Assembly: GCA_964023275.1 (NCBI GenBank)
Contig: OZ029928.1
Coordinates: 1,736,001 to 1,800,000 of the forward strand
Source of the DNA: Norana najaformis
Lineage: Eukaryota; Annelida; Clitellata; Crassiclitellata; Hormogastridae
DNA length: 64,000 nucleotides
Direction of reading: 5' to 3'
Part shown: positions 3,701-50,400 of the stretch, piece by piece
How the letters are laid out: every line of letters begins with the position of its first letter
Position numbering within the stretch: the first letter of the stretch is position 1
Translations under genes and position numbers: made by a program
Notes under the pieces: model-generated
Database searches by the model: none
What the model was told of the DNA's origin: nothing
What the model saw: only the letters and a program-made list of their open reading frames with translations

Positions 3701-6700
3701 TGAAATGCATTCTTTGCTTAATAGGCTACCAGTGCAATTATTGTATTATTGGCTTAATATGATGATATTTAAGGGTCTTTGTTATGGCTATGGAGAGAGA
3801 GTTTTGAACGTATTATAGCTTGTGCAAATCTCTCTTAGTGATATCGATAGGAAGTGATTTACAGTTCTCAAGTCTATTGAAAACCAATGCATTAGCTAGC
3901 TGGATTAAGACTGTTTGAGGTAAAAGAGGTCTGCTTCTACGAATATATTACATATGTGAAATTGAGATGATCTGCATAATTATTACATGAACATGGTTAG
4001 AAAATTACTGGTGGAATCAAACACTACGCCCGAACTAAGTGCGCATTTAGTGAGCCACCCGAATGAACAGACGCAAGGCAGTCAAGTTTACGGATTTGTT
4101 GGCTTTGCCTAGGAGTAAACGTTCTTTTCTAGAAGGATTCAGAAGAAGTTTATTACTAGCCATCCAAAATTATACATCGTCAAAAACATAAACAATTGGT
4201 TGAAGGGCCGGATTAGACGTGGAACTATCAAATGAAAGGAGCAATAGGGTATCGCCAGTATACAAGTGGTAGTAAAGAGAGCTATCAGTAAGTGGTGAAC
4301 CGAGTGGAGTGGATATATATGTGTTCAGTGGCCTAAATAATTGCACGATATTGCAAATACGGATCTACAATTTACTGTCATATAAAGTTTTCGTAATACT
4401 GAAATGACAACAATTTAATAATTTTTTATAATATCAAGTGAGTTTGCAACTTTACTAAAAAATTAATAACTTATGCTACACCTAAGAAAGGTGCTCGTAT
4501 ATCCAAAAGCCGAGAAATTTTTTGGCATGCACTTTAAACATTTTTAATTTCAGTTTTTAGTGAAGTAGTGATGGGCCTATCATTCACAACTCAAGAAGAC
4601 CAGTAGGCCTTAATGCAATATAATTGGCTTTCTTAACATTTAGCGATGAATTATTTGTTTCAAAACAAAGGTGCAAGTTTTACCAGCTTAGTATTTAACA
4701 AGTTTGCAATTAACAAATCTGAAAAAGATCCGCATTCCTTAGGTAGATTACAAGGCGTCATCCCGTCTGTCTGTATCTGAATGTGTCTGACCCTTCATCG
4801 CCTCTTTACACTTAGGCCTACAATCCTTTGCTGCTTCTGCGACATACTATTAATTATGGCCAGTCAAAACCTGATCTGCAAGTCGTCAATCACTAGCACC
4901 TCAGCATAGGCTTATACTTTACACAACTCGTTCTTAAATCGTGACGTTTCCACATTAAAACCAGTTTTGCTGAATTGCTACCGTAAAACGTACGATGACT
5001 TTCTGAACACGTATAATATGATTATCACAAATGTGTCCAGCTATTATACATAGTGTTTTCAAAGAGGAAATGTGAGTGTTAATTCTTTACTTTTCTATTA
5101 CCATCAGTAGCCAGTACCATTCTTAGTAGAGATTCCGTCACTGTAATCATCAACATCAAACTTTAAGTCAATTTCTTCGTGGGGTTTGAATTTACAGAGG
5201 ATTAAAACTAATTGTGATATACAAGAGAAAGCAGTTTTAGTACATAAGAACTTTATTTACAAATGCATCTTTGAATTCAAATACAATTGTTACAGGTCTC
5301 AACTCTTCTACAGCTTTACCTAAAAGCACAGACTATGCGCAAGTAGTTGTAAAATACCCCGATTTGTTTTCGTTGTATCCTTTTATTTTACACCTTAATA
5401 GAGATCAAAGTGACATAGAAAACATAAACTTTAATAACACTGGATCACACGAAACATTTTTTCGCCTGCTACTAGGCATATGTTATGTGTACTACACTAA
5501 ATCGAATCTGCTGATTCCAAATCTGAAGTCAGATTTCGTGTAGCACGTCAGGATCTTAGGATATGCAGCATACATGCTAATAATTATGCAAACTCTTTAC
5601 AGAACTAGTATTTCCTTATAACTGTGTAATTATGCAAACTCAGAGTATTCATAACAAGAAACAAAATGTTATCCTTTTATAACTTGAAATTAAAATATGT
5701 TTTAAAATGTAATATAAATATATGTATGTTACTCAGATGAAAGCATACATTTCGAAATTTTGTCTCTAGCTTAACTCTATACGAGTTCAAAAGTGCTTTA
5801 GACACTTGCTCTTGCGCTTGTGAGTGGCCGCTGTTGCCCGCTGCAGAAACCAGCAGTAATCGCCCATCATGTTGGAATTGCAGTGGCCCTGATATCTTGC
5901 TTCAAAGGTGGAGATGTCTTGATGGAATCTCTCTCCATGCTCATCGCTTATATCACCCAAGTTTGATGGGAAAAAATCCAGATGGGAATGTAAGAAATGT
6001 ATTTTTAGTGACATCCGGCAGCCGAGTTGCTTATATGCTTTTAGCATGTTGCTAACGAGTTCAGCATAGCTCGGTGATTCCCAAGAAAGTTTTGCACCAC
6101 CAACGTACATGCATCCCAAGCGGCAAATTCCAGTGGGTTGAGCTTGGTTCTAAATACAGTATCACGCATTAGTTCGCGGATTTCTGGCCCAATAAAAATC
6201 CCAGCCTTCAGCTTAGCATCAGTTTTGACGGCTCCAAATTTATCTCTCAGATACTGGAAGCCTTGTCCAGTACGATCCATTGCCACTACGAAATTCCTCA
6301 TGAGGCCCAGTTTAATGTGAAGTGGTGGTAAGTACACTTTCAATGGATCAACCAATGGTTCGTGTTGCACGTTGTGCCGACCAACAATGTGCTCAGATCT
6401 AGGAGGCCACAGTTTCACTTTGTAATGGTTGCTGTCATCACGACTGTTCCACAAGCACAAAAAGCACATATGTTTTGTGTACCCCAGCTGTAGGCCTAGA
6501 ATAAGTGCTACCACTTTGAGGTCCGCACAGATGTTCCATTTGTGGTCTGAGTAGTTGATCACTTTCAAAATGAGTTTCATTGAATCATATGTCTCTTTGA
6601 GGCCTACAGCGTGGGCTATAGGAACAGACGGCTTTTCGTTACCATTGTGCACCAACACAGCTTTCAAGCTCGCTTGGCTGGAATCTATGAACAGTCTCCA

Positions 6701-9700
6701 CTGATCAGGAACGTATTCGCAACCTAAATTCAGCATGAGACCGTTCACGTCAGTACAGAAACAGATATCATTTTCCAGTTTGTAATATGTAGCTAACTGT
6801 TTGTGACGATAACGGAAGTGTGATGTTGTGGTACCTTTTTGAAGCAAGTTCCACTCCCCTAGTCTGGAGGCTAACAGTTCAGATTTCTCCTTTGACAAAG
6901 ATAGGTCCCTCACCAGATCATCTAACTCACCTCGCCTTATCAAATGCGGCCTACCCTCTTCCAAATCTTGATCACTGGATTCATAAACAGTGACGTCATC
7001 TTCTGTATTACCATCAGAACTCTCCGTTTCATCAGCACCGCAGCAGGCGGAAATGGTACTGGATTCTCTTCATCATGCGGCACTGGCTTTAGAGCGTACT
7101 CGCAATCAGGATAAACGATTTTAGACTTATTTTTCTTTGAAAATCCAGCAACTTTAGTAATGCAGAAATAACAGTCTGCATGATGATTTCTTGGCTCGCG
7201 CCACACCATAGGCACAGCAAACGGCATTGAATTCCTTGTGCCATTCAGCCACTATGTAAGCCCAGAGTAGCACACGGTGCAGCAGACATGAGGTGCCCAA
7301 CTTTTATCCTGGTCTCCGATTTGACATCCAAAATAATACTTGTAAGCAATCATCACTCTCTTAGTTAACTTCTTGCGCTGGTCACAAAGAGTATATTTAC
7401 CACAAACATAGCAAAAATTGTCTGGATGGTTAACACAGCCTCGCCTATTCATTTCAAAATTAAATCTCACACACTAGCTACAGCTATATAAGAAAACTTC
7501 ACCTTCGTTCTACGCAATCTCGCCTTATATACTGGTATTGATGCTGACGTCAGCTCGCTGACATGCCCAATCATGTCTAGCGGCTGCTGCAGGCTTGCTG
7601 TTAGGAATATTTCAGGCGACACTTGCAGGCATGCACGTATCACTGGCAGCAATCGTGGAGACACATACAACAGAATGTACAGACATAACCGAAAACGAGT
7701 CCTTACGTCATTACTTGAATGCATGCATAACTTAAAATCTAGACGTGCTGGGCAGATTCTGACTTCATATTTGGAATCAGCACATTTGAATCAATATAAG
7801 GCACATGCATTACTTTCAGTAGCAAAATCGTTGTGATCCAGTGGAATATGTCTAGTGTGCTACAAACGCAAATATCGATTAATGCAATTATTTTAAAAGT
7901 TAAAAATGTTTATGTCCGCATTTTCGCTCACACATAAAATTGTGTAAAGATTTCAAACTTTTAAATGTAAATTTCATTGGCATATCACATCTTCAGATTT
8001 TTTATAATTTAGGTGCTGCTGGAGCAAATTTAAACGGTGAATATTGAATGAAAATTTCTAACTGGCGCCTTCAAGTTGTTTAATAAATGAATTCGCAATA
8101 TAGAACCAATGGTAAAAAGGCAAGCATAAGTCACATGCTAACTGGCTTATTCTCACAAACGACTTTTTGAAGATATTCCTCTCCTGGTTTGCCCAGCCTA
8201 AACTATTGACAGGCTGGACTTCACAGTTTCCAATCTTAATAACAGAATCATTTAACAAAATTAACCAATGAATATATATAAGCACAATAACCACCTAATC
8301 AGATATAACGAGGCCTACAAAGTCATTGATACAGACTGCATATTATTACATAAGAAATTTATGCACCACAAAATAGCATACAACTGCAAACAGTCATTCT
8401 GTTATCAGTCTGCTACGAAAACCACGCACAACACTGAAAGAAAAAACCAGTAATCCGCCGCCGTAATTCTCAGTCCGTCGAGAAAGACGATCGAACATAA
8501 TTGTTCATTAGTTATACACCGACTGCCTTCTAAATCTCTCAAGTTAAATAATGTCGGCCCTCTTCGTTCACCGTGGCACATTTGGCTTACCCTGTCCACA
8601 TGTATATGAAATTGTAATTGTAATCAGAAATTTGTATAGAGCCTCTTCAAGCAAAGACTAATCAGTGGCGCAGGACGGACAGGTATTCGTCGCCCGCCGG
8701 CCGGTAGGTTGTTAAGCCGTTAGTTAGTTGAACCGTTCCGTGGCTGACAGTCGGAGCCGTTCCTAGTATGGTCTGAAGGTCCGATGCTCGAGAGTCAAGA
8801 TGGAAGCCTGTCCCCCCGAAACGGAATTTTGAATTGTATTCTGCGGTCGTAATCGTTATCGAAATCGTTATCTCGAGATTTCTACAGCGCCCAACCAAAG
8901 CTAAGTCGCGGGAACCAGATTATCCACAGACGCTCAGTCAAAACAAAATCGATAGGCGAGAAAGTTCGGTTCCAAATCAAGATCTAGGAGTTAGGCAGTC
9001 AGACAGTCGGACGGCTACGGTGAATGGTGTTTGAAATTGATGCGAGAAGAGAGATAAGGGGAAGAGAAAGAATCAGGGTAAGACTTTTGGAAAAGTAATG
9101 TTTTTACGGTCACTAGCCGTCGTCATCGGGCGTTTTCTGTGGCTGGTCCAAGGCTCTGAAATTCAGTTCCCAGTTCTGTCAGTTTTTTTCATTCAAGTCT
9201 GAATTTAGATTTATCTTTTTCATAGCCACCATGCCCTGCTTTCTGGTTTCCCTCGCTTGTCGAATTTCGACCGGGCTTCTCCTGCGTTTCACGATTTTTG
9301 ACTAAGGTTTCACGTAAAGAACCTATGATTTATGTCTTTCCAGAATGACAACGGCGCTGTAGTAGTCATTACAATATTAGTAAATAAAGAAAAGCGAGGC
9401 GAAGGAAAAAATATATCGTATCTGTGATAAAGAATATGCTATACCGCTAATAAAGCGGAATTAATTAGCGGGAGTTTGAAATTTTAGAGTCTACGTGTTT
9501 TGCCCAAAGATGTAATGGTGTGATATAATGCGTTCACATGTATATTGTTTGAACGAGTAAAAATATATAAACTAAAACTGTTAAAGGATTCTTCTTCCCT
9601 CTTGGTATTTTCTCTTTGAGTCACGATACTTAGAACACCAATGTTTAGTTCATAGTAAATTTTCACTAAACTAGCCAATTTCCCATGAAGTTGCGAAACC

Positions 9701-12700: not shown

Positions 12701-15700
12701 AGTATAGTGATTTATTAGGCAACAAGCTAGTTTATTGGTAAAGACTAGCATATGTAGATACTTAGGATTAGTATTGATAAATGGGGATCTGCTGTGTCAT
12801 GATGGCGGACGTATTACAAGATTGGTGGACGACTAGGCAGATTCAATTGACCGCCAATAAGACCAAACGATCGCTTGTGCATTGAAGATGCATGATGCAG
12901 CATGACGAATCAGAAATATAACGTCGCCATCATCGGGCAGGTGTATTTTTAGAGAGGGTAGAAGAGTCGGTGAACGTTAAAATGTGGGAGTCTTACGCTG
13001 GACACGAAAGGGTGAACTCGTGACAAATTCCTTCGTATTTCTTCGGATCGATTTGAAGTTTGAGCTGCAGTACTTCAGATAGCTTCTCAACTCGTTAGGA
13101 AGTCATTTCCTAAGTAGTTATAGTAGAACAATGAACTGCGACTTACCTGTCGGACGTCTTGTCAGCGGCAGCGTGAAGTAAATTGATCTGTCGTGTAATC
13201 AAACTGCGAGGATTGCGTTCGTTAGGCGAATTGAGTGAAAATGCCGAGTAACTTTTTCAGCTAAGTTAAGCAAAGGAACTATGAAAGAACTGTAACTGGG
13301 AAAACTCGAATCAGTTTTAATTAACGTGGGAAAGGAAGAGTAAATTCACAAGTTTATAAGAATACAAATTGTGCTGGTCTTATGTACGCTAGGTTAATGG
13401 ATTGGAAATTCCCTTGTATATTCATTGAACTCAAAACATTGTAAATACATTGTAATGAATTCATAATTTTAAATTGACAGTGATCGTAACGAGCCATCAT
13501 ATCACCAAACATCTTATTCTGTTGTAAGGGTTTGACAAAGTAAGACTTGGGTTAACTTGCTAGTCAATAGTAGATCACTTACTCCCCCAAGCCCCGGCCA
13601 ATTTACCTTTGGGAGATGGTCTGGGTAAAGTCCTATGCACGCGCCTTGTCGTGGCGGGGGAGCAACTCTAGTCCACCTCGTATGGATGCGGTATGGAGGC
13701 CAAGCGTGCAAGGGCGAATTTCCAAATGATCAACAATGGCTACAATAAATAGTTTAAAAGGTGTTGCCTCTGCAGCACCTATCATTTTGGCTGAAGGAGC
13801 GGCGAGTGAGATACCTGGGCTAACGATATGCTTCAAATGCCATCGTGGCTTCAAGGGGGACAGAGGACCTTCGCTCCATCGCAGAAGGGCCCACCCCGAG
13901 GAGTATCACGCGGAACATCAGGTCTCGATCAGAGTCAAGGCGCGATGGCCCCCGGAGGAGAGTAAGCGTATGGTCTGCTGTGAAGCCGACCTTCTTATAT
14001 CCGGGGTGAAGCCGGCTCTCATCAACAGTCATCTGGTCGAGGTCTTTAAGGACAGGACCCGCGAGGCGATAAAAGGGCTCCGACGGAAACAAGATTACAA
14101 GGACGAGGTCGACAACCTTGTAGCCCGTGCTCGAACACTTGAATGTGAGTCGGAGTCCATTGATTCGCTGAGCGGGAACTCCTTGGAAAGCTGTTCCGGC
14201 TCATCATGGCGAAGGGAGGTCCTCACTCTTGTCAACGAGGGCCTTCGAGAAGACAGAGGGGAGCCGGGCAGTGATCCTCTTATTGAGACTCTCCTGGAGG
14301 CTGTTGAGAGAGCGGAGAGAATAGCACCTGATTGTGATGCTGTTGCGAAGACGCTACTCGATAGTTGTGCTGTGCAACTAACCACCTTCCTCAAATCCCT
14401 GTCACAGAGAACCGAGAGAAGCAAACCACGAAAAGGTAAAAAGGGCAAAAAGCCGCCAGGCCCTGACAGGCCGAGAACCGGCAATACGAAAAGAAGGCTG
14501 AACCCGAAACGTCTTGCCCGTCAAATGGCATACGTTAGGGTGCAGAAAGCCTTCCGATCGAACCGTAAGAGGTGCGCGGAGATGGTTCTAGAAGGAACAT
14601 GGGAGCGGGAAGAGACGACGTTGACCTTGGAGGAACAGGAGGGATTTTGGCGGCCCATTTTCTCTTCTCCTTCTGAGGCTGACGAGCGACCAGTATCTAA
14701 GGCCCGAGAGGACTGGTCCATCGTCGAACCTGTTACCCGAGAGGAGGTGGTCAAAGCTATTGCCAACTCTGAGGAAAGTGCGCCGGGACCAGATGGAGTT
14801 ACCCTGAAGGAGATGAAGTTGGTCTTGCCGGGACTTCTGGATGCATTTTACAATTTGTGACTTGTTCTGGGACACGTTCCTGGACAGTTTCTTGATGGCG
14901 AGACTATACTGATCCAGAAAGGAGGAGATCCAAAGGACCCAGCCAACTATAGGCCTATCACCATGGCCTCACGTGTGACGAGGGTCTTTCATAAGATCGT
15001 GGCCGCTCGTCTAGTCGAGAAAGTACCACGACCCCAGACAGAAAGCGTTCACACCAGTTGACGGATGTGCTGATAACATCTTCCTTCTCGATACCATCAT
15101 CAGGGGGGCCCAGCGGCAGAGGAAACCGGTGTGCCTGGCCTTCATGGATGTTGCCAAAGTCTTTGACTGTGTCTCGCATAAGACACTGGCTCGTGCACTC
15201 AAGAGGCTGGGCGTACCATCGCCGCTGGTGCAGTACGTTACGAGGATGTACGCCAACACATCGACCGTGCTCAAAGTGGGCGGTCGAAGAAGCGGACCGA
15301 TTCTGTGCGGCCGCGGCGTACGTCAAGGCGATCCCCTGTCGGCCATCTTGTTCAATTGTGTGATGGATGAAGTGTTGTCGGCCCTAAACCCGGCCATTGG
15401 TTATTTCCTGGACAAGGATTACTAGGTTCGGTGTTTAGCGTTTGCCGACGACCTCGTCCTCATTGCTACAACTGCTGAGGGCCTGCGAGAACAGGTGGAA
15501 AAGGTGCAACATGCGCTACAGCTCGGGGGACTCAGACTGAACCCAGCAAAATGTACCACCCTCCGCATCGATGTGGATGGGAAGGCGAAACGCTGGGTGG
15601 TGAATCCTTCACCAACGATTACTATCGGAGGTGAATCAGTAAAATCCATGACTGTAGTGCAGACCTACAAATATCTGGGATTGCAGGCAGGAGCGTCCGG

Positions 15701-18700
15701 TGTGAGGAAGGCCCACTGCGACTTTCTCAATGTGGGACTCGATGGATTGACACGTGCTCCTCTAAAACCCCAGCAGCGCATGTTCCTATTACGCTGTCAT
15801 TTGTTGCCGAAAATGTATCATGGACTCGTTCTCGGGGAGCTAACGGCAAAGTCGCTGGAGCAGTTGGACCGTCTGGTGAGGGCGGCACTACGCAGATGGC
15901 TGTGGCTGCCGCACGACACTCCCACGGCGTATTTCCATGCCAGCGCAGCCGATGGTGGACTGGAAGTGCCACGCCTGCTTTACCTGATTCCATCGATGAA
16001 GGCCCGTCGTATGGTCAAGGTGGGAATGTCTCAGGATCCCATCATGCAGAGCGTGGCTACAGGTCCAATCTTCCTGGGAGCGAGGAGGAAGTGTGCAAAG
16101 AGGGCACGGGTGGCAAATCGAGAGCTGAGTGACAGCAATGATGCGAAGGAGCTCTTGGCGACCCAGCTCCACGCATCGGTTGACGGTCGGGGTCTGAAGC
16201 AGCAGGAACAAACCCCTCATGTGAACACCTGGGTGACCGATGGGTCTCTGCTGCTTTCGGGCGGGGACTACATCCAGGCTGTGAAAGTACGGGATAACCT
16301 GGTGCCGTCTGGGGAGCGTACCTCGCGCGGGCGGCCCTCGGGTCCAGTATGGTGTGAGGCTGGGTGCAACGCTCAAAGCACCCTGGCGCACACCTCCCAA
16401 AGCTGCGTAAGAACCCACCGTCTCCGGTGCAATAGACGCAATTCGGTACTCGACCTGATCGTCAATAGGGTCGAGTCCAAGGGTCACGAAGTGATCCGGG
16501 AGCCGATTATAGTCACTGGAGCTGGGAGGCGCAAGCCTGACCTGGTGGCCTGGGTGGATGGGGTAGCCTGTGTTGTTGACGTCACCATAACGTCGGATTG
16601 CAATGATATGAGCGATCCGTACGAGAATAAGGTTAGCTACTACGCTACACCGGATGTCATGGCCATATTACAGAAACGAGAACAGGAGAAAACATTTCAC
16701 TTTAATGACAATAGTAACACACTATTAATATTCCAGTTGGAAGCCGATAAATGAATGTTGATTTGAGCCACGTACGCATGCTATAATATCATGATTATAG
16801 GTTTAGCCTAAAATGCATGACCAGCTGAGACTGTCGAATGTGAAACAATTCTGTTCTCTGTCGTTTATTCTTAGAAACTTGAATCTTTTTGTCCAATAGT
16901 ATTTGTCCAATAAAAGTACGGTCGTAATGTTGGAGCTGGTTAATCAGACCCGTTATAATTCAAAGTGCATGCAGTTATGATAATCTCGTTTTCCATGAAA
17001 ACACTTCCACTGTTAACTGTAATATCATCGCATCATCTATGGCCCGCCCAGCTTCAGAGCGTAGCCGTTTCCACAATACGCCTCCAACATTCTCTGTTTG
17101 GGCGCGTTTCCAGGCCGTGTAAAATTCGAATTCAGGGGAGGCTGGTAGGACTCAACCACTCTTGTACATGTATGGCGAGGACGTCCAACTGATCTCTTCC
17201 AACCTCTTGTGGGGCAGCTATCATGGCACGTTGAGCTCTGGCATGGTCCTGTTCTCTGTTGCAGCGTGCTATGTGCAAACAGCCGGAGCCTCAAATTCTG
17301 CATCCCATATATATATATAATATACTAAATATATATATGACTCTAGAGTCATGCAAAAACAATACAATACATAAAATACAATGCGATGTAACTGAAATTT
17401 GACAATGCCCTTTTACAAAGTTTAGAGGTGCACCTTGAAGCCAAAGCAACAGGAACACTAAAATCATAAACAGACTGAAAGAGGTAACTTTTCAATTTAT
17501 AGCGAAAGATAGTTTCTGTGAGAGAGTTGCGAACAAGAAGACATTGAGAGTTCCAGACGAAAGGACCAGCATCTGTGAATGAACGCCGGCCAAAGATAAT
17601 ACGTGCACCAGGAACAAATTACTTTCCAGAAAATGCTGATCAAAGAGAAGATCACCCTTTAACAGATCTATAGGGTGCAACTATGGGTGATAAGTCTGAT
17701 GGCAGTTGATTTGCAAGTGCAGTATATATGAGGAGTGCCAGCTTGAAGCGGATAGAGTCAGATTCAGGAAGCCGGTGCAGTGAACCAAGAGCAGGTGTGC
17801 TATTGACGCCATAACAGTGTCGAATACTTAGTTGCGCAACCTGGGGCATAACTCAAATTAGAGGAAGCAGTGTATATTCAGGGAGATCATAGAATAGACA
17901 GTTGCAGTACTCGAGTCTTTTTCAGAATGAGGCAATACATCAGTGTTTCAGCGACGCTGATTCTAGAATAAAGCGAAGCTGTCGGATCATTCTGAGGTGA
18001 AACAATCATGTTCGAGAAGTTGGAGCCATTTAAAGTTTTACAGAGAGTGTTGAGTCGAGAATGACTCGAAGATCCCGAACAGTAGAGGATGGGGAGAGTA
18101 AAGAGGAGTAATTAGAGAGTGAGAGTGAGGTGTCAGTACCCGCCCAGCGCCATCGATTGCTAAGCGTCATTGTTTGATGCTGAGTCGTAAGGCAGAGGCG
18201 CTTAAAAAATGTTGAAATAAATAAATAATAACAATAATAATAACAGCGTGTAAAAATTTTTATTCTTTGTTCCTGGGTAGTAAGTGTTATTTCCTATTTG
18301 CTTTGCCTCAGAAGTACAGAAAAAATGGCTAATATTCCCCATAAACGTTGCTTATATGACCAGGACAGTGATATTCTGAAATCTACTTACTTTACAGAAC
18401 ATTCAAGATGAATTCAGTACTAAGTAAACTTGGAGTTACTGCTAGAACTTTCTAGGACTTTCGAGAATATTCTAGAACGTCTGAGAACCTTCTAGAACTT
18501 TCCAGAAATATGAATTGCAGTAAAAATATACTGGACTTAAGCCCACCGGTTCAGTTTAGTTGTAGCTGCCTAAGTGGATACATATCTGAGTTGGCATCAA
18601 GAAGCTACAAACATCCGGCAGACGCATTTTGCTATGTCTGCGGCCAATTTATAAAGACAAGGGTGAAAAGTACCCCGTGGAAGCATCTGCTAAGATGTGT

Positions 18701-21700
18701 GAAGCCTACAAGGCATATTTCGGCATGCCTGCCGGGGATCAGGATAAAACCTGGGCACCTCATTTCACCTGCGAGCATTGCAAGAAACACTGGATGGTAA
18801 GATGGACAATTGATACTCGCTTAAATGGCGACATTTTATGTTATAAAAGTTTTAAAAGTTTGAAATGTTGTAATTTCACACTTTTTGAAAATTCTGTGTT
18901 ACTGAACAAATATGTGATATGGGAAATATGTTGCGAGAATGTCTTATACATTAGTCATGGGTGAAATACATTTATTTTGTTATGATCACATTTTCATTTT
19001 GTTCTATTGCAGGATGGTACAGAGGGGAAAAGGAAGCCATGAAGTTCACTATCCCAAGAATTTGGCGAGAACCCACTGACCACTCAAGCAATTGCTACTT
19101 CTGCATGGTGGATCCTTTCAAACGTCGGGATGACTAAGACTGCACCTGCTATCACGTATCCGGACTTTCCTTCATTCATCGCCCCAGTGTCACACTTCCC
19201 TGAGTTTCCCGTACCCACTCCTCCGGAGAGAAAGCAGCCGTTTTCAGAAGAGAGCAGCAGTAAATCAGAGAGCGAGGAAGACGTTAGAGATTCAATTACA
19301 ATTTCCGAGCTGAATTACTATCCCAACCAAAAAGACCTCAACATTTTGATCAGAGGTCTTGGTCTCACCAAGTCAAATGCCGAGCTTTTGACGTCTAGGC
19401 TTGTGGCACTTCCAAACTTTGTATCATAAATGTTGCAAAGGTGTTATATAAATAGCTACAAATGCTTGAGCAGCGCCGTGTTACAACATAGATCTCACGT
19501 TGATTACATCTGACTCAAGCACCTGTTCATTCGTATGCTACTTCTGCGCATGTTCGGCGGCCATGATGTGGTCGTGCTTTCCCCGCTTCTCATTTCGGCT
19601 TAAATTTCGTCTTAAAGCAAAATAGTTGTTCGGAAATTCTTTTGTGTTCAGACTGCTGTTGTGACCGGCTTGGCGTTCAGGTGCTTTTTAACACGACTTC
19701 GTCATGGTTTTTCAGTTTTCGGATAGTTTTCTGTTCGCGATCGACACCCCCTCCTCGCAAGAATAGTACATTTTACACTGAAGGGATGACAGGTCGCAAC
19801 TCACGCCTAACGTTTTGGAATTGTTTCGACTGTCTAGCGGAGAGGGGTCCTACCATCAATCGAACGGCTGTCCATCATGAATCAACCTGGTGCTCGAGTT
19901 ATGCCTGGACGTCACATCTTCTACCACCTGCGAGGGACGGCGTTGAACGGTGTACTGCGGACGCCATCGCCCGTCGTCGTTCTACGATTCTGAAACTACT
20001 CGGTTCACGAACTCTGAACACGTGATCATCAATCAACTCGGGAGGAAAGCCAGTTGGTTGGGTTCAGCGTGTGTGCGCGAGTCCGCAGCTGGTGACATTT
20101 CTAGTTATCTGGACACTGCTTGCTAAATGACGGAATTTTTGTTCTTAATGACACTTAACACCATTTAAGTTAGCACAGGAAGCACCTTTGTGAGGCACTT
20201 AAAAAGCGCTATATCAAGTTTTTATATAAATACATACATACATGACTAATTTAATGTTTTGGCTCGTATATAGATAGTCATAGGATAAAGTTTTGATTAT
20301 ATATTATCAAGTTAGCCTTCACAGGAATACATAACAGCAATGCAGTTCAGAAGTGCCTAGTTTACTTACCTATGGCCAGCTAATCTCTAAACTTAATAGA
20401 ATATTTACTGACTTCCCTTCCCACTTGAAGATCTGTCTTGGAATTCAATCTCTCTTCTTCCAGTTCATTGGATGACTGTCCACAGTTTGGATTCTGAAAT
20501 GAAGCCGTGCTCTTTTCCTTTGTCTTTCGATTCTATTCCAATATGGCGACGCCTTCAGAAGAATCCGACTCGCATACAGTACATCAAACGATTGACGATC
20601 GTTCCTTTGTAGTCGTTTCTCCTGATCAGTTCACTGACTCTACGACTTCATTCGATGACAGTTTCACCGATGAAACTTAACTTTTGATAGGTTAAACGAG
20701 TACAATTCGATAACCTTTCGTTGCGATGAAGATTCACAGTTCCTTCAGCCACGTCTTTGACCACGGATTACATACACAGTTCGATTTTCGGCCGATTCAA
20801 CTCACTTTCCTTCGACTAACTCTGTCGCAATTAAGACTCGAATATTTGCAAGTTACACAGTAATTAATTTTCCTTAAATTACTGGAAAAACTCGACTTTC
20901 ACACGAGTAATGTGAAGGCAGTTCATACGATCTTATCACCTCAGTTGCCCATCACAAGACTGTTGGTTTTCAACGTCCTTTCATTCCCTTCACAGATCGT
21001 CTGCTCGAAGCGTGACGTGGACATCATACGTGGCGAAAACACGATCACCCGATCTGACTTCCATGGTAAACTGTCGGCTGGAAAATCAATGGCGTCCTGT
21101 AAATCTGCCGATTCACTGTCCACAGTATCCCCATTGAATGTTTGACTTGTACAGAAACGCTTAGTCAATACAATATAAACACCCTACTAAACTAACTAAA
21201 ATCAAATTATTTACCTAAGCTGGCCATTTATTAATATTAGAATCCAACCTACTCTATAACTGGCCGGCTAATCTTAAGTCTAAAATCTTAATCAGCTACC
21301 CTATATAGTCTGCATGCTAAACTTAACATTAATAAGTATGTATACATAACACAAGATAATACTAATCAAACGCGCATTAAATGGAGGTTCGCTACAATAC
21401 TCAGGCAGTGGAATTTGTTGGATGAAAGTGTGCAAGTCGCAGATCAGAGGAAGCGTCACCAAGCTTTTTCCAGCTTCTTCAACAGTCAAGATGGGCTCTG
21501 CTTCTGCCACAATGTGACCAGTCTGTTCGAGCCAATTGGAATCGACTGTAACCCGAACGAGTGGCGTCTCTTCATTGACAGTTCATCCAGGAGCCTCAAA
21601 GCTGTGCTGCTCCATAACGGGAACAAGTACCCGTCTCATCCTCTGGCTCACTTGGTGCACCTCACAGAGGATTACAACACCATCAACAGCTTACTAGACG

Positions 21701-29354: not shown

Positions 29355-29725
29355 TTGGATGTATTTCGTATAAAGGGGTATTATTAAAATGTATTCGTTG
29401 TTTCAGTCTTTGTTATCGTGATGTACAAATCAATAGTGAACGGTTGAACTTTTCTTCCGCGATCTTACAGCAAGTTGATATGAATGCGATATCAACAGAT
29501 GCATATTAGTCCACGTATGACTGCCAAAGCAGTAATATGCTAAGCGAGTCCAGTTTGACTGACCTCCTTCACACGACGCGCAGCCTATAGGCTTTAGTCA
29601 CGAGACAATGATGCACACGCACCTCAAGCATTAGTAATGATGCTAACAGTATCACCACATTAACTTGGAGCCTTAGTTTCAGCCAACATTTAATTCTTGG
29701 ATTTGATATGCAATGATTTGGTTAC
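29355..29725. other. Gene A 5' flank, no recognised promoter motif
   Basis: This is the only host sequence between gene A exon 1 and the CG2 element, so the gene A promoter should lie here or be split by CG2. No clear TATA box was identified. Confidence 0.4.
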
Positions 29726-32348
29726 ACTGGCCAACACATAATTTGTTGCCTCAAATGTTAGAACTGTTTCTGGGTATATTTGACCTGCTGATTCCAGAAA
29801 AGGCACCAGTTTTCTCCCAGCAGGTCTAGTTTTCGAGATATAGAACATTATGCCATATACCAGTCCTTGCCTTTGCTCGCCCATAAAACATAAGGCTATA
29901 GCTATAATTATGTAGTGCTCAATTTATTATGTGATACACTAAATAAACATAATAATACAAATACTTAAAAGAAAATGGTAGTACCTGAAACTGTACTTAT
30001 ATGATACCAAACAGAACAAGTTTGTTATAAAAATTTCAAGTCATTCGACACCGAAGAACCTCCTTTTGTACGATTTCCGAGTGTGGCATCTGCCGGAACA
30101 ATCGCGCATAATATTCCAGCAATAGTCTGCCATCATGTGTGCATCCCATCTTTCTTGATATCGATTTTCCATTGTTTTGATGTCTTGGAGAAATCTTTCA
30201 CCTTGCTCTTCGCTGAAGTCACCAAGATTCTCTGGAAAGCGATCTAAGTGACTGTGGAGATAATGGACTTTAATGCTCATGTTGCAGCCAAGCTTGTTGA
30301 AATGAAGAAGCATATCCTCTACTAGTTGTGCATAATTGTCTGCCTTCTTGTTGCCAAGAAAATTTTTACTTACAAGAACAAAGGAAGACCAGGCACAAGA
30401 TTCGATTTCATTCATTGATGGTATGAAAAGTGGGTCATTCATAAGTTGCCTGATCTGTGGACCATCGAAGATTCCAGCCTTCAATTTTTCCATTGTAATT
30501 CCTGGTAACTTGTGTACTATGTATTTGAAGCATGAACCTTCTTTATTCAAAGCCCTGACAAATTGTTTCATCAGGCCTAGCTTTATATGTAGTGGTGGCA
30601 GTATGATCCTATCTCGTGCCACCAAAGATTCCTTGATTGCATTTTGAGCTCCAACCACCATGTCTTTCGTCGAAGGCCAATCTTTTCTTGTCCAATGTTC
30701 ATGCTTGGCTCTACTGTCCCAAAGACACAAAAAGCAGGGATACTTTGTGTAGCCACTTTGTTGACCAAGGAGGAAATTTACCATCTTCAAGTCTACACAA
30801 ATTACCCATTGATGTTCTTTGTATTTTATCTTTTCCAGTACTAAAGAGATGGCATTGTACTCTTCTTTCATCCTGGTGGAGTGACCGATTGGAATAGAAC
30901 CAAATTTGTTGCCGTTATTTAAAAGCACACATTTCAGACTACGTTTTGAACTGTCGATAAAAAGACGCCACTCATCTGGGCTGTAATCCGACAGACCAAT
31001 TTTCTTCAATAAGTTGCTGATGTCATTACAAAATACTAGGTTGTTGTCTTCGGTAAAGAATGGCAGCAAATCCTTTTCTCTGTTTCTATAAATTGTAATT
31101 TTCGTTCCAGGCTGAAGTGCATTCTTTTCCTTTAGTCTGGACGCAAGCAATTCAGAGGACTCTTTGGAAAGATTTAAGTCCCTGATCAGATCACTCAACT
31201 CTTTTTGGTCAAAACGTTCACTGTGTGAAGTTGATTGGAAATCACTGTCACTGCCCCCACTTTCTTCACTTTCGTCATCTTGTCCGATATTGGACATGCA
31301 AGTCTCATCGTCTGAGAGCTGAGGTAGTTCGCGAAAAGGTGGAACTGGTACAATATCCGAATGCGGAACAGGTCTCCTGGCTGAAGGTATATCAGGGTAA
31401 GACAACTTGTTACGATTATTTCGATTGATGCCTATGATATTAACCATACAAAAGTAACAGTCGTCCAAGTGGTTTATCTGTTCCCTCCAAACCATCGGTA
31501 CACCAAATTTCAGGCAGCTTCTCTTTCCAATTGTCCAGTGGCGCAATTGTTCAATACAAGTTTTGCATACTGTATGAGGAGCCCATTGCTTATCTTGATC
31601 TCCAAGTTTGACACCAAAATAACCTACATATGCTCTTTTTACAAACTCAGAAATCGGTTTCCTGTTTGCTTTTAGTGTGTATTCCCCACAAATGTAGCAG
31701 AATATGTCTGGATGGTTAATGCAGCTCCGTCTGGAAGTAGCCATAACCTTAAGGATGTTCACATCTGAGGAATTAAATGACTAACCTAAAAAATAGTAAG
31801 AACATGTAGTTATTTAATGCTCACATTCACAGATTGTTCTTGCGACCAACTCTTAATATGCCCTAAGACGACTGCGGCTGCTCTAGCTTTCAGGAGGCGG
31901 TTTATATAGGCTATAAATGCTGACTTCAGCATAATCTATTTACATAGTTCGAAACCATGAAACGCTGTATAAGCACAAATAAATTCTAAATGAGGCCATG
32001 AATTTAGTGCTGAGTAAGCTGTAGGCTACGGAATAGTTATTTCGTTGAATCAGCAATATCTCAGCACGCGGCAAGATATGCTGATTTTACATTATAAGGA
32101 TGTAGGCATTATATGAATCAGCAAGAATTATAATTAGCCATAAATAAAGCTTATTATGACATTTTAGTTTTGCCAAAGACATCGTTTAAAGAGTGGACTG
32201 GGTTTTCTTTACAAAATCGACGATATCTCAGAAACTAGACCTGATGCACTCAATCCAATGACATTTTCTGAATCAGCGCCCAAAATTACCCCAAGAACAG
32301 GTCTAAAACCGAAGGCAACAAGAAAAAATTTTTTTCTGTTGGCCAGTG
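29726..32348 (-). mobile_element. CG2 DNA transposon, apparently complete
   Basis: Ends are CACTGGCCAACA at 29726 and its inverse at 32348. They are flanked by TTA on both sides, a 3-base target duplication. Terminal regions are similar over about 120 bases, with shared GGTCTAGTTT and GAGATAT blocks and a GCTGATTC motif also present in CG1. A TATA-like TATATAAA lies near 31905 on the minus strand, upstream of the transposase. CACTG ends and a TTA duplication recall the CMC (CACTA/Mirage/Chapaev) group, but the assignment is tentative. It sits between the divergent receptor genes. Confidence 0.9.
30041..31744 (-). CDS. CG2 transposase, intact (567 aa; 573 aa from an upstream ATG at 31762)
   Basis: An uninterrupted frame. 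The start at 31744 (MATSRRSC) is preferred because it aligns with the HX and CG1 starts; an in-frame ATG lies six codons upstream. Domains in order: an N-terminal C-x2-C zinc-binding region (FCYICGEYTL ... WAPHTVCKTC), a second one at PMVWREQ...CYFC, an acidic linker, a helical ELSDLIRDLNLSKESSELL segment (in parts), then an RNase-H-like core with WRLFIDSS, VICVDLKMV, PCFLCLW and LPPLHIKLGLM. The end has HSHLD...GERFLQDI. The first two aspartates and the GERF glutamate are my proposed catalytic triad. Proteins of this type occur in many invertebrate genomes in many copies. It probably acts in the nucleus, cutting CACTGG ends. Confidence 0.85.
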   Translation of the reverse strand: MATSRRSCINHPDIFCYICGEYTLKANRKPISEFVKRAYVGYFGVKLGDQDKQWAPHTVCKTCIEQLRHWTIGKRSCLKFGVPMVWREQINHLDDCYFCMVNIIGINRNNRNKLSYPDIPSARRPVPHSDIVPVPPFRELPQLSDDETCMSNIGQDDESEESGGSDSDFQSTSHSERFDQKELSDLIRDLNLSKESSELLASRLKEKNALQPGTKITIYRNREKDLLPFFTEDNNLVFCNDISNLLKKIGLSDYSPDEWRLFIDSSKRSLKCVLLNNGNKFGSIPIGHSTRMKEEYNAISLVLEKIKYKEHQWVICVDLKMVNFLLGQQSGYTKYPCFLCLWDSRAKHEHWTRKDWPSTKDMVVGAQNAIKESLVARDRIILPPLHIKLGLMKQFVRALNKEGSCFKYIVHKLPGITMEKLKAGIFDGPQIRQLMNDPLFIPSMNEIESCAWSSFVLVSKNFLGNKKADNYAQLVEDMLLHFNKLGCNMSIKVHYLHSHLDRFPENLGDFSEEQGERFLQDIKTMENRYQERWDAHMMADYCWNIMRDCSGRCHTRKSYKRRFFGVE

Positions 32349-32612: not shown

Positions 32613-35023
32613 CACTGGATCACAACGATTTTGCTACTGAAAGTAATGCATGTGCCTTATATTGATTCAAATGTGCTGATTCCAAATATGAAGTCAGAAT
32701 CTGCCCAGCACGTCTAGATTTTAAGTTATGCATGCATTCAAGTAATGACGTAAGGACTCGTTTTCGGTTATGTCTGTACATTCTGTTGTATGTGTCTCCA
32801 CGATTGCTGCCAGTGATACGTGCATGCCTGCAAGTGTCGCCTGAAATATTCCTAACAGCAAGCCTGCAGCAGCCGCTAGACATGATTGGGCATGTCAGCG
32901 AGCTGACGTCAGCATCAATACCAGTATATAAGGCGAGATTGCGTAGAACGAAGGTGAAGTTTTCTTATATAGCTGTAGCTAGTGTGTGAGATTTAATTTT
33001 GAAATGAATAGGCGAGGCTGTGTTAACCATCCAGACATTTTTGCTATGTTTGTGGTAAATATACTCTTTGTGACCAGCGCAAGAAGTTAACTAAGAGAGT
33101 GATGATTGCTTACAAGTATTATTTTGGATGTCAAATCGGAGACCAGGATAAAAGTTGGGCACCTCATGTCTGCTGCACCGTGTGCTACTCTGGGCTTACA
33201 TAGTGGCTGAATGGCACAAGGAATTCAATGCCGTTTGCTGTGCCTATGGTGTGGCGCGAGCCAAGAAATCATCATGCAGACTGTTATTTCTGCATTACTA
33301 AAGTTGCTGGATTTTCAAAGAAAAATAAGTCTAAAATCGTTTATCCTGATTGCGAGTACGCTCTAAAGCCAGTGCCGCATGATGAAGAGAATCCAGTACC
33401 ATTTCCGCCTGCTGCGGTGCTGATGAAACGGAGAGTTCTGATGGTAATACAGAAGATGACGTCACTGTTTATGAATCCAGTGATCAAGATTTGGAAGAGG
33501 GTAGGCCGCATTTGATAAGGCGAGGTGAGTTAGATGATCTGGTGAGGGACCTATCTTTGTCAAAGGAGAAATCTGAACTGTTAGCCTCCAGACTAGGGGA
33601 GTGGAACTTGCTTCAAAAAGGTACCACAACATCACACTTCCGTTATCGTCACAAACAGTTAGCTACATATTACAAACTGGAAAATGATATCTGTTTCTGT
33701 ACTGACGTGAACGGTCTCATGCTGAATTTAGGTTGCGAATACGTTCCTGATCAGTGGAGACTGTTCATAGATTCCAGCCAAGCGAGCTTGAAAGCTGTGT
33801 TGGTGCACAATGGTAACGAAAAGCCGTCTGTTCCTATAGCCCACGCTGTAGGCCTCAAAGAGACATATGATTCAATGAAACTCATTTTGAAAGTGATCAA
33901 CTACTCAGACCACAAATGGAACATCTGTGCGGACCTCAAAGTGGTAGCACTTATTCTAGGCCTACAGCTGGGGTACACAAAACATATGTGCTTTTTGTGC
34001 TTGTGGAACAGTCGTGATGACAGCAACCATTACAAAGTGAAACTGTGGCCTCCTAGATCTGAGCACATTGTTGGTCGGCTCAACGTGCAACACGAATCAT
34101 TGGTTGATCCATTGAAAGTGTACTTACCACCACTTCACATTAAACTGGGCCTCATGAGGAATTTCGTAGTGGCAATGGATCGTACTGGACAAGGCTTCCA
34201 GTATCTGAGAGATAAATTTGGAGCCGTCAAAACTGATGCTAAGCTTGAGGCTGGAATTTTTATTGGGCCAGAAATCCGCGAACTAATGCGTAATACTGTA
34301 TTTAGAACCAAGCTCAACCCACTGGAATTTGCCGCTTGGGATGCATGTACGTTGGTGGTGCAAAACTTCCTTGGGAATCACCGAGCTGAGAACTATGCTG
34401 AACTCGTTAGCAACATGCTAAAAGCATATAAGCAACTCGGCTGCCGGATGTCACTAAAAATACATTTCTTACATTCCCATCTGATTTTTTCCCACCAAAC
34501 TTGGGTGATATAAGCGATGAGTATGGAGAGAGATTCCATCAAGACATCTCCACCTTTGAAGCAAGATATCAGGGCCACTGCAATTCCATCATGATGGGCG
34601 ATTACTGCTGGTTTCTGCAGCGGGCAACAGCGGCCACTCACAAGCGCAAGAGCAAGTGTCTAAAGCACTTTTGAACTCGTATAGAGTTAAGCTAGAGACA
34701 AAATTTCGAAATGTATGCTTTCATCTGAGTAACATACATATATTTATATTACATTTTAAAACATATTTTAATTTCAAGTTATAAAAGAATAACATTTTGT
34801 TTCTTGTTATGAATACTCTGAGTTTGCATAATTACACAGTTATAAGGAAATACTAGTTCTGTAAAGAGTTTGCATAATTATTAGCATGTATGCTGCATAT
34901 CTTAAGATCCTGACGTGCTACACGAAATCTGACTTCATATTTGGAATCAGCAGATTCGATTTAGTGTAGTACACATAATATATGCCTAGTAGCAGGCGAA
35001 AAATTTTTTCGTGTGATCCAGTG
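32613..35023 (+). mobile_element. CG1 DNA transposon, copy B
   Basis: It starts CACTGGATCACAACG and ends with the inverse at 35023. TTATTA flanks both sides, which is a TTA duplication (a 6-base reading cannot be excluded). It is nearly identical to copy A but in reverse orientation. A TATA-like TATATAAGGCG lies near 32923, about 80 bases before the transposase start. It separates the gene B exon 1 region from sequence further upstream. Confidence 0.9.
33004..34674 (+). pseudogene. CG1 transposase, broken (copy B)
   Basis: It shows the same protein as copy A, with the stop after CYSGL and the frameshift before EEGRPHLIRR in common. One base is missing in HPDxF near 33040, and the frame shifts after FLHSHL near 34483. 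A long frame (33491-34513) covers most of the RNase-H-like core. The shared lesions show both copies descend from an already defective source, so they were probably moved by a transposase made elsewhere. Confidence 0.8.
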
Positions 35024-47400: not shown

Positions 47401-50400
47401 TTTCTTTATTTGAACTTCTTACCTTCAATTTCTTGATTTAGGATAGTTCTTAATTATTGACCGCTGTCAGTGACAGCTGACTACTCTATGCATTCCCTCT
47501 CTGCGATCTGTCTCGTGCGACGTTTCTCGATAAGGAAGGGCTACCTTAAAACGACGGAGGACGTCATCAGAAATTCCCAGAGCCGCCAAAGACCTCTGAG
47601 GTACTCTTGCTATCGTTTGCTGCTGCCCGTGGTTCACTGACGCTGCTGGCATTCTACCGATCTGATTCCTCATCTCTTTCACTGGAATTACACTGTGTAA
47701 CAAAGCTTAACTTTTGGTTTGTTCCTGGGTAGTTAGTGTTGTTTCCTAATGGCTTTGCCTCAGAAGTATAAAAATGGCTATTATTTCCTAAAAACTTTGG
47801 TTTTGTGACTAGGACAGTGATATTCTGAAATTTACCCATTTTGCAGAACATTTAAGATGAATTCAGTGCTGAGTAAACTTGGGGTTACTGCTAGAACTAT
47901 CTAGAAATTTCATGAATTTTCTAGAACGTCCGAGAACCTTCTAGAACTTTCCAGAAATATAAATAGCAGTATAAATACAGTGGCCTTAACCCCACCAGTT
48001 CAGTTTAGTTGTAGCTGCCTAAGTGGATACATATTTGAGATGGCATCAAGGGGGTGCAAGCATCCGGCAGACGCATTTTGCTATGACTGCGGCCAATTTA
48101 TAAAGATCAGAGTGAAAAAGTACTCCGTGTAAGGATCTGCTAAGATGTGCGAGGCCTACAAATCATATTTCGGCATGCCTCTCGGGGATGAAGATAAACC
48201 CTTGGCACCTCATTTCACCTGCGAGCATTGCAAGAAACACTGGAAGGTAAGATGAACAATTTGCAATTAATACTCGCTTAGAATGCGATATCAGATGTTA
48301 TAAAAATTTAAATTTTGTGTTGTAATTCAACATTTTCTGCAAATATTCAATGTCACTGAACAAATATATCATATGCGAAATATGTTGCGAGAATGTCTTA
48401 CATATTAGTCATGGGTGAAATATATTTAGTTTATTATGATCACAATTTCGTTTTGTTCTTTTGCAGGATGGTACAGAGGGGAAAAGGAAGCCATGAAGTT
48501 CACTATCCCAAGAATTTGGCGAGAACCCACTGACCACTCAAGCAATAGATAATTCTGCATGTTAGATCCTTCCAAACGTCGGACTGGCAAGGATGCACCT
48601 GCTATCACGTATCAGGACCTTCCTTCATCCATCGCGCCGGTGCCCCACTGCCATGAGCTTCCCGTACCCACTCCTCCGGAGAGAAAGCAGCAGTCTTCAG
48701 AAGAGAGCAGTAAGTCAGAAGCGAGGAAGACGTTGGAGATCCAGATTACAATTTCCGAGCTGAATTGAGAAGCCCATACTATCTCAACCAAAAAGACCTC
48801 AACAATTTGATCAGAGATCTTGGTCTCTTCAAGTCCAATGCCGAGCTTTTGACGTCTAGGCTTAGACAGTGGCACTTGTTTGGATTAAAGTCTGCAAATC
48901 GCAGATGAGAGGAAGCGTCACCAATCTTTGTTCAGCTTCTTCACCAAATAAGATGGGCTCTGCTTCTGCCACAATGTGGCTGGCCTGTTCGAGACTGTAA
49001 CTCGAACTAGTGGCGTCTCTTCACTGACAGTTCATCCAGAAGCCTCAAAGCTTGCTGCTTCATAACGGGAACAAGTACCCGTCTCTTCCCCTAGATCACT
49101 CGGTGCACCTCAGAAAGGATTACGACAGCATCAAGAGCTTGCTGAGACGCCTTGAAGTATGATGACTACGGCTGGGAGGTCATCGCAGACTTCAGAATGG
49201 TAGCATCGCTGATGGGTCTCGTAGGCGGTTTTACCAAGTTTCCTTGCTATCTTTGCCTTTGACAACAAGGTGCACTACAACAGGCGGGGCTGGCCACAGC
49301 GGACCGAGTTCTCTGTGTGGAGGAACAACGTCAAGTGGGAGCAACTAGTGGATCCCAGAAGGTGGTGATGCCACAACTGCACATCAAATTGAGCCTTATG
49401 AAACAATTTGTCACAGCTCTAGATAAGGAGTCGGCAGTCTTCAAGTACCTTCCAGACTTCTTCCCTAAGCTGTATGAGCCAAAGGTGAAAACTGGTTTCT
49501 TTGTCGGAAGATACTGGAGTGCAAAGAATTCCCCAAAAAGCTCACTAGGAAGGAAAAAGCATCTTGAAACAGCTTTGTCGAAATGGATAGGGGCTTCCTG
49601 GGCAATCACAATGTCGAAAACTGTGTGTAGATGGTTGAGACTCTGGTGAATAACTACGGCAAAACGAGCTGTAGGATGTCCACCAAAGTTCATATCCTTG
49701 ATTTCCATCTTGATAATTTGAAGGAGAACATGGGAGCGTACTGGAAGGAGCAAGGCGAGCGCTTTCACCACAAGATACTGGACTTTGAACGTCGCTGTCA
49801 AGAACAATATAACGAGAACATAACGGGAGACTACATCTGGGGCTGATTCGTGAAAGTGATTTACAGTATAATCGTAAATCTTGAAAAACTACTCACTTCT
49901 AGATCTTTTGTGGTCATTTTTATTTCACTTTAGTCTAAAAGCATGTTAGTTTTGATTCATATGTTGTTTTTCCGACTTTATGTGAACGACAAGATGCACA
50001 TTCGCCCGTACTGGCCTAGTTAGCTACATCAGTAAGCGCGTATGCCAAGGAAGCCTCGGTGAGTGAGGATCCCAGGTTCGCGTCCCGGTCGTGGCTTATT
50101 TCAGAGATTTGAATCTCGGGCTAGTACGGTCCGTGCGCGGGGACCTTAAATGGCCTGTAGCGGTGGTGAAGGATCTCACCCGTGCGCGGGTGGAGGCCAT
50201 ATGGTCGCTATAGAAAAAGGTGTACAATTTACAATTTTTTACAATTTTTTAATTGGAAATAGGTACAGTGTAAATATCAGAATATCACTGTCCTGCTCAC
50301 AAAAGCAAAGTTTGTGGGGAATAACAGTCATTTTCTATACTTTTGACCATAAGCAAGTAGGAAATTAACACTTACTACCCTGTAACAAAAATTGTGTTAC

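Follow-up and report, generated by a model that had tools for sequence, protein, structure and literature searches.

What does a long array of heat-shock-element (HSE) half-sites do directly in front of a transposase gene? The question is raised by HX, a transposon with two copies in the window analysed here, a 64-kb stretch of contig C16 (G000:C16:1736001-1800000) from a genome of 608 Mb in 17 contigs. HX unites the anatomy of a DNA transposon with the layout of a promoter, and its array occurs throughout the family and is absent from the sister families examined. Judging from the sequence, we consider it likely that HX is a CMC/EnSpm-like transposon family whose transposase gene lies under a putative HSF-responsive promoter.

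Results

Thirteen HSE units in phase in both copies

The first HX copy (copy 1, locus L009; 18244..22440, plus strand) has the ends CAGCG...TAGTG and the flanks TAA and CAA. An insertion of about 2 kb (roughly 19404-21400) interrupts this element, and its coding matches to the second copy end at 19402 and pick up again at 21418. The second copy (copy 2, locus L016; 47691..50406, plus strand) carries CACTGTGTAAC at its 5' end and is flanked by the target duplication TTA/TTA.

An earlier note on this DNA had claimed that both copies carry 13 alternating nGAAn/nTTCn units that keep their phase over 65 bases, and the array was borne out on rescoring: it matches 36 of the 39 core bases in copy 1 (18444..18508, plus strand) and 37 of 39 in copy 2 (47893..47957, plus strand), as compared with a top 13-unit score of 27 (mean 23.2, sd 0.96) in 300 first-order Markov simulations of the 64-kb window. 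Runs of at least four perfect units were confined, within the window, to the two HX arrays. In each copy 11 of the 13 units are perfect, and the copies indeed fail at different units save unit 8, copy 1 at units 3 and 8 and copy 2 at units 2 and 8. Both miss unit 8 because this unit (GTCCG) is imperfect in the family consensus itself, which was built from 90 aligned HX promoters (31 selected through the array pattern, 40 with a query that included the array) and has 12/13 perfect units and 38/39 core bases. STAT or steroid-receptor palindromes were considered as the identity of the array and set aside: GAA and TTC lie 2 nt apart, and the 5-bp phase is kept over 65 bp.

The same note had placed the array far beyond the usual 3-6 units. 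This range proved too strict, as in 13 Drosophila species HSEs are described with anything from 2 to 11 subunits, counting gapped ones (PMC2871787), and in length the HX array comes close to the longest HSEs described in Drosophila genes and does not far exceed them; what stands is that the near-perfect match across 13 units is unusual. Drosophila heat-shock genes are akin to HX in their alternating in-phase 5-bp units, up to eleven subunits in Hsp68, but their HSEs belong to host genes and are counted with imperfect and gapped units, whereas the HX consensus holds 13 units of which 12 are perfect (PMC2871787).

A promoter layout in front of a transposase gene

In copy 2, as in the consensus, a TATAAATA box adjoins the array and is repeated 12 nt further (two boxes at 47958..47977, plus strand, starting at 47958 and 47970), and in copy 1 the TATA position (18509..18516, plus strand) has decayed to TATGAATT, in agreement with the claim that the array stands directly before the TATA position. 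An initiator-like TCAGTT follows at 18551..18556 (plus strand) in copy 1 and at 48000..48005 (plus strand) in copy 2, where 32 nt separate its A from the beginning of the second TATA. The start codon had been put 83 bases after the array: in copy 2 the array ends at 47957 and the ATG is at 48040, leaving 82 bases between them, the consensus likewise has 82 nt, and in copy 1 the ATG has mutated to TTG at 18591. The transposase gene of copy 2 consists of an exon 1 that begins at this ATG and has one internal stop (48040..48246, plus strand), an intron with GT..AG ends that is also present in copy 1 (48247..48466, plus strand), and the remains of exon 2, with frames broken several times (48467..49843, plus strand). 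Relative to a transcription start inferred from the TATA and TCAGTT, HX has at least three contiguous alternating nGAAn/nTTCn units close upstream, which is the arrangement by which heat-shock promoters are recognized (PMC2871787).

The array across the HX family and the genome

Using the promoter region 18400-18700, array included, as a query, we obtained 249 candidates and one 52-bp side match; 40 of the candidates were scored. The array was present in 40/40 copies, with a mean of 10.2 perfect units, and 38/40 scored at least 34/39; the exceptions were L015 (27/39), in which a 2-nt insertion breaks the phase, and L032 (31/39). A second search with a coding-side query free of the array (18555-18812) gave 231 candidates, of which 40 were again scored; 21 of these had already appeared in the first search, and the upstream DNA of the remaining 19 was fetched. 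Eighteen of the 19 keep the array, at 30 to 37 of 39 and in some cases with shortening in 10-bp steps or small indels, and L079 has three units left (19/39), its upstream DNA passing into unrelated sequence. Copies lacking the array were what the earlier note had named as counting against its proposal; among HX copies sampled by coding sequence alone, 39/40 keep it. Three more HX copies, found by protein similarity, score 34 (L141), 28 (L142) and 35 (L143) of 39.

Genome-wide, there are 70 overlapping sites with seven contiguous perfect units, as compared with 0 for the pattern read backwards, and 344 sites with five, as compared with 10 backwards. The 70 sites make up 52 places, and in 51 of them HX promoter sequence is found on at least one side. 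The sole non-HX place, L123, is a short TGAAATTTC repeat, with no gene recognized by eye in 2 kb.

Several of these loci appear to be copies of one another. Among the 52 places are two pairs, on C8 and C15, that seem to have been duplicated recently. The paired HX copies L110/L122 and L111/L121 (C8 at about 34.94-34.96 Mb; C15 at about 8.54-8.55 Mb) look nearly alike, as if a segment bearing two HX copies had been duplicated between C8 and C15, and the L111/L121 pair has 11 contiguous perfect units. Copy 1 (L009) and L010 (C16:1124951-1128200) seemingly have their inserted sequence in common, as if duplicated after the insertion. C16, which makes up ~3.4% of the genome, accounts for 8/40 of the best promoter matches, a share that may reflect bias since the query came from C16. 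Outside the genome, nine stretches with seven HSE-like units were seen in IMG/VR viral contigs; by eye these are not HX-like, and one stretch is common to L098, L103 and L105, another to L100 and L106, with a further one at L101.

HX is a CMC/EnSpm-like element

Of the 20 HX copies tested, 14 have long TIRs (102-137 nt aligned, 78-88% identical) and span about 1.8 to 2.7 kb; in copy 1 the repeat is 36 nt long, and none was found in the other five. The ends of HX read CAC...GTG, and CAC(T/C) where undamaged; the 5' end of copy 2 is CACTG, and its 3' end has decayed. Where both ends were legible by eye, 3-bp target duplications of TAA or TTA (that is, TWA) were seen at L013, L018, L023, L026, L027, L028, L036 and copy 2, and also in the sister families HX2 (L132) and HX3; the flanks do not match at L040, L047, L012 and copy 1 (TAA/CAA). 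In an alignment of 20 homologues of the transposase the residues D263, D317, C336-x2-C339, H493-x4-H498 and E511/E512 are invariant, among which we infer the catalytic ones.

CAC...GTG termini characterize CMC/EnSpm elements, and a C(2)C plus H(3-4)H signature is given for EnSpm, Mirage, Chapaev and Transib (PMC12730594). HX has CAC...GTG termini, a 3-bp duplication and a DDE domain with C(2)C and H(4)H, and on these features it is classed as a CMC/EnSpm-like (CACTA-like) cut-and-paste DNA transposon. The identification of HX as a DNA transposon, made earlier from the letters, is thus upheld by its TIRs, ends, target duplications and DDE motifs. Pfam returned no transposase match for the 20 homologues and, at their N-terminus, a ZAD zinc-finger match below the cut-off (7/20 members, best E 0.0015); no solved relative was found.

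The HX protein has 587 relatives at E <= 1e-3. Among the best 120 of these is one from the fish Myxocyprinus asiaticus, at 68% across the whole query, and others named among the same 120 come from sturgeon, lamprey, frog, mantis shrimp, prawn, moth, wasp and sponge; all named relatives in other species are proteins. HX-like genes are present in Myxocyprinus asiaticus (LOC127440312), Oratosquilla oratoria (LOC143022524) and Acipenser ruthenus. In genome contigs of other species, query P0001 gave one stretch and no relative. In viral contigs the P0001 query gave no pattern match, and the 20-protein alignment used as a query gave 55 stretches, none a relative.

The window also contains reverse-transcriptase fragments (Pfam RVT_1) at 39178-39777 and 42098-42874, both on the minus strand, and long frames at 13736-14857 and 15648-16751 (plus strand) that have no Pfam match and look retroelement-like by eye. 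Rfam and tRNA scans of the 64 kb gave no matches.

Sister families lack the array

HX2 is about 49-50% identical to P0001 and is stop-free in 70/72 scored matches. Upstream of HX2 no run of even two HSE units was found in 8/8 regions (L132-L138, L140); clustered before its TATA box are instead TGATGCAAT, TTACGTCA, TGACGTAA and TGACGTCA, which we take to be bZIP/CRE/ATF4-type sites. HX2 and HX3 share the termini CACTGG...CCAGTG. The HX3 element of the window (29725..32348, minus strand) has an uninterrupted 567-aa frame at 30041-31744, ends CACTGGCCAAC and the duplication TAA/TAA, and 77/77 scored HX3 matches in the genome are 98-100% identical, 76 of them stop-free, which suggests a very recent burst. 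A further CACTG-ended sister family, HX4, has two copies in the window, one at 5438..7843 (minus strand) and one at 32613..35023 (plus strand), inverted relative to each other with arms 98-100% complementary; the second holds a 264-aa frame with transposase motifs. No array was found in HX3 or in either HX4 copy, where the 13-unit score is at most 21/39. As HX2, HX3 and HX4 are all without it, the array is particular to HX among the families examined.

The HX family at present

Among 40 HX copies retrieved together with the coding region, no uninterrupted transposase was found; HX-like genome matches that cover most of the protein contain stops, and the stop-free ones are partial. At non-CpG sites of the flanks, the divergence of HX copies from the promoter consensus is ~7%. 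Among the 18 copies that came up solely with the query free of the array, divergence was 7.1% in the core bases and 7.3% in the spacers (p = 0.90). For the 39 copies drawn from the coding-only sample, 21 of which also ranked high with the array-holding query, it was 5.3% in the core and 7.5% in the spacers (p = 0.04; core versus flanks, p = 0.31), and in all 90 aligned promoters, a set partly picked by array, 5.0% and 7.4%, respectively (p = 0.0006). Present-day selection on the array was considered and found unsupported, core and spacer divergence being equal in the 18 array-independent copies. The arrays appear by now to be eroding in the same way as their flanks, and the simplest reading is that they were inherited from an active ancestor and have no upkeep now; the family looks dead at present.

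Heat-shock genes of the host

Before the TATA box of the hsp70 gene at C9:2585711 lies a degenerate HSE array of nine units, with a score of 22/27 that 0/200 shuffles reach. An hsp70-type gene at C9:4375104 has a weak array (18/27; 5/200 shuffles reach), and at a third hsp70-type gene, C8:33839611, no array was found (15/27; 160/200 shuffles reach). The HSF DNA-binding domain has four matches in the genome, one of them with stops; three were translated, and they are candidate HSF genes. By eye, the promoter of the C9:2585711 gene (L127, C9:2585100-2586120) has in common with HX the phase of the units as well as an imperfect unit followed by GAGAACC. In a comparison of hsp70 with other species, in which the 8000 candidates that had most words in common were scored and the best 120 considered, the nearest named relative was from the leech Helobdella (94%), ahead of vertebrates, molluscs and a second annelid at about 90-93%, and the highest-scoring hits (98%) were contigs of about 2 kb. 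The host may accordingly be a lophotrochozoan, perhaps an annelid, which is a guess given how conserved hsp70 is.

Discussion

The 65 bp and 13 half-sites of the HX array give room for about four HSF trimers, and it is most likely that such trimers occupied it and drove the transposase from the adjacent core promoter; the succession of array, TATA boxes and initiator-like TCAGTT is the layout of a heat-shock-gene promoter. Active HSF in the host, whether in heat, in proteotoxic stress or possibly in germ cells, would then have led to transposase and hence to movement of the element, and the arrays of dead copies would persist as old HSF-site clusters, which make up nearly all of the longest in the genome. 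A native promoter of similar layout (hsp70 at C9:2585711) and the presence of genes with a predicted HSF domain favour this model. Weighing against it are the sister families, which seem to have been recently active and manage without the array, the imperfect unit 8 of the consensus together with the lack of array upkeep now, and the two further hsp70-type genes with a weak array or none.

HSF could also have bound the array for expression in germ cells or the early embryo, with any heat response a side effect, an explanation that we regard as unlikely though not negligible. A DNA transposon needs to be mobile in the germ line, the array suits HSF binding equally well in this case, and one such factor, HSF5, is described as critical for male meiotic prophase under unstressed conditions (PMC11059408). 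The genome, however, holds several HSF-domain genes, and the present data fit germ-line expression and a heat response alike.

We think it very improbable that the array is instead a set of subterminal repeats bound by the transposase, without a part in the control of transcription. Plant CACTA elements carry such transposase-binding repeats near both of their ends, HX is itself CMC/EnSpm-like, and its array falls in roughly the first 270 bp from the 5' end. Yet in 13/13 HX copies (the 15 with a mapped repeat pair minus L009 and L014) the array was found only at the 5' side, before the gene, the best 3' score being 21/39, so that repeats near both ends are not what HX has; HX2, HX3 and HX4 lack the array altogether; and the array adjoins a TATA box and consists of exact HSF half-sites. 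Slightly less credible still is a fortuitous 10-bp tandem repeat that multiplied along with the family and was functionless from the start: units have been gained or lost in slippage-like 10-bp steps (L083 is shorter, L107 longer) and the arrays have no clear excess conservation today, but the consensus 10-mers vary mainly at the spacers, 38/39 core bases fit GAA/TTC, and the array sits directly before the TATA and the gene.

Returning to the HSF-responsive promoter, a wider scenario can be sketched, which we offer as speculation that may well prove wrong. HX may have built a near-ideal HSF promoter or captured that of a host hsp gene, its units being more numerous and better matched than those of the native hsp70 arrays observed; its sisters would use other promoters, bZIP/CRE/ATF4-like in HX2, and related transposons would thus compete by way of different stress pathways, dead HX copies having left nearly all of the longest HSF-site arrays. 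Capture from the host hsp70 in particular is left as a lead.

Heat-shock promoters are already known in other transposons, to which HX probably adds a CMC-type case, as far as the open-access literature goes: our search there turned up no HSE array in a CMC/CACTA element. DIRS-1 of Dictyostelium is a tyrosine-recombinase retroelement and in this respect unlike HX. It has a heat-shock promoter in its terminal repeats (Zuker et al. 1984, cited in PMC2685390), and both are mobile elements with a heat-shock-type promoter, the HX array lying inside of the TIR, next to the gene. The Helitrons of Caenorhabditis have HSEs that are reported to bind HSF-1, and their transposase mRNA to be induced by heat (PMC6927752); like HX they are DNA transposons with tandem HSEs near the transposase, and most genomic HSEs lie inside the element, but they are rolling-circle elements, whereas HX is a DDE cut-and-paste element with one 13-unit array fixed before the TATA. 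ONSEN, a copia retrotransposon of Arabidopsis, resembles HX in its promoter HSE, heat-induced transcription being a feature of ONSEN (PMC5056178, PMC6927752); in contrast to HX it is a plant LTR retrotransposon, with the HSE in the LTR (PMC5056178). In Cryptococcus, the LTRs of TCN3 and TCN12 contain putative HSEs and the two elements move more at 37 C, and CNIRT6 and CNEST are CMC-type like HX, CNEST grouping with unclassified animal transposases; unlike in HX, the HSEs are in retrotransposons, and none is reported for CNIRT6 or CNEST in the parts of that work drawn on here (PMC12810828).

HX makes a strong case, on its sequence, for a coupling of transposition to stress in an animal cut-and-paste DNA transposon. 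Three sister families that lack the array serve as natural controls, and the array is a defined element of 65 bp. A single family supplies 51/52 of the longest HSF-site arrays found, and these are raw material for rewiring of the heat-shock response, a role that has been argued for the HSEs of Caenorhabditis Helitrons (PMC6927752).
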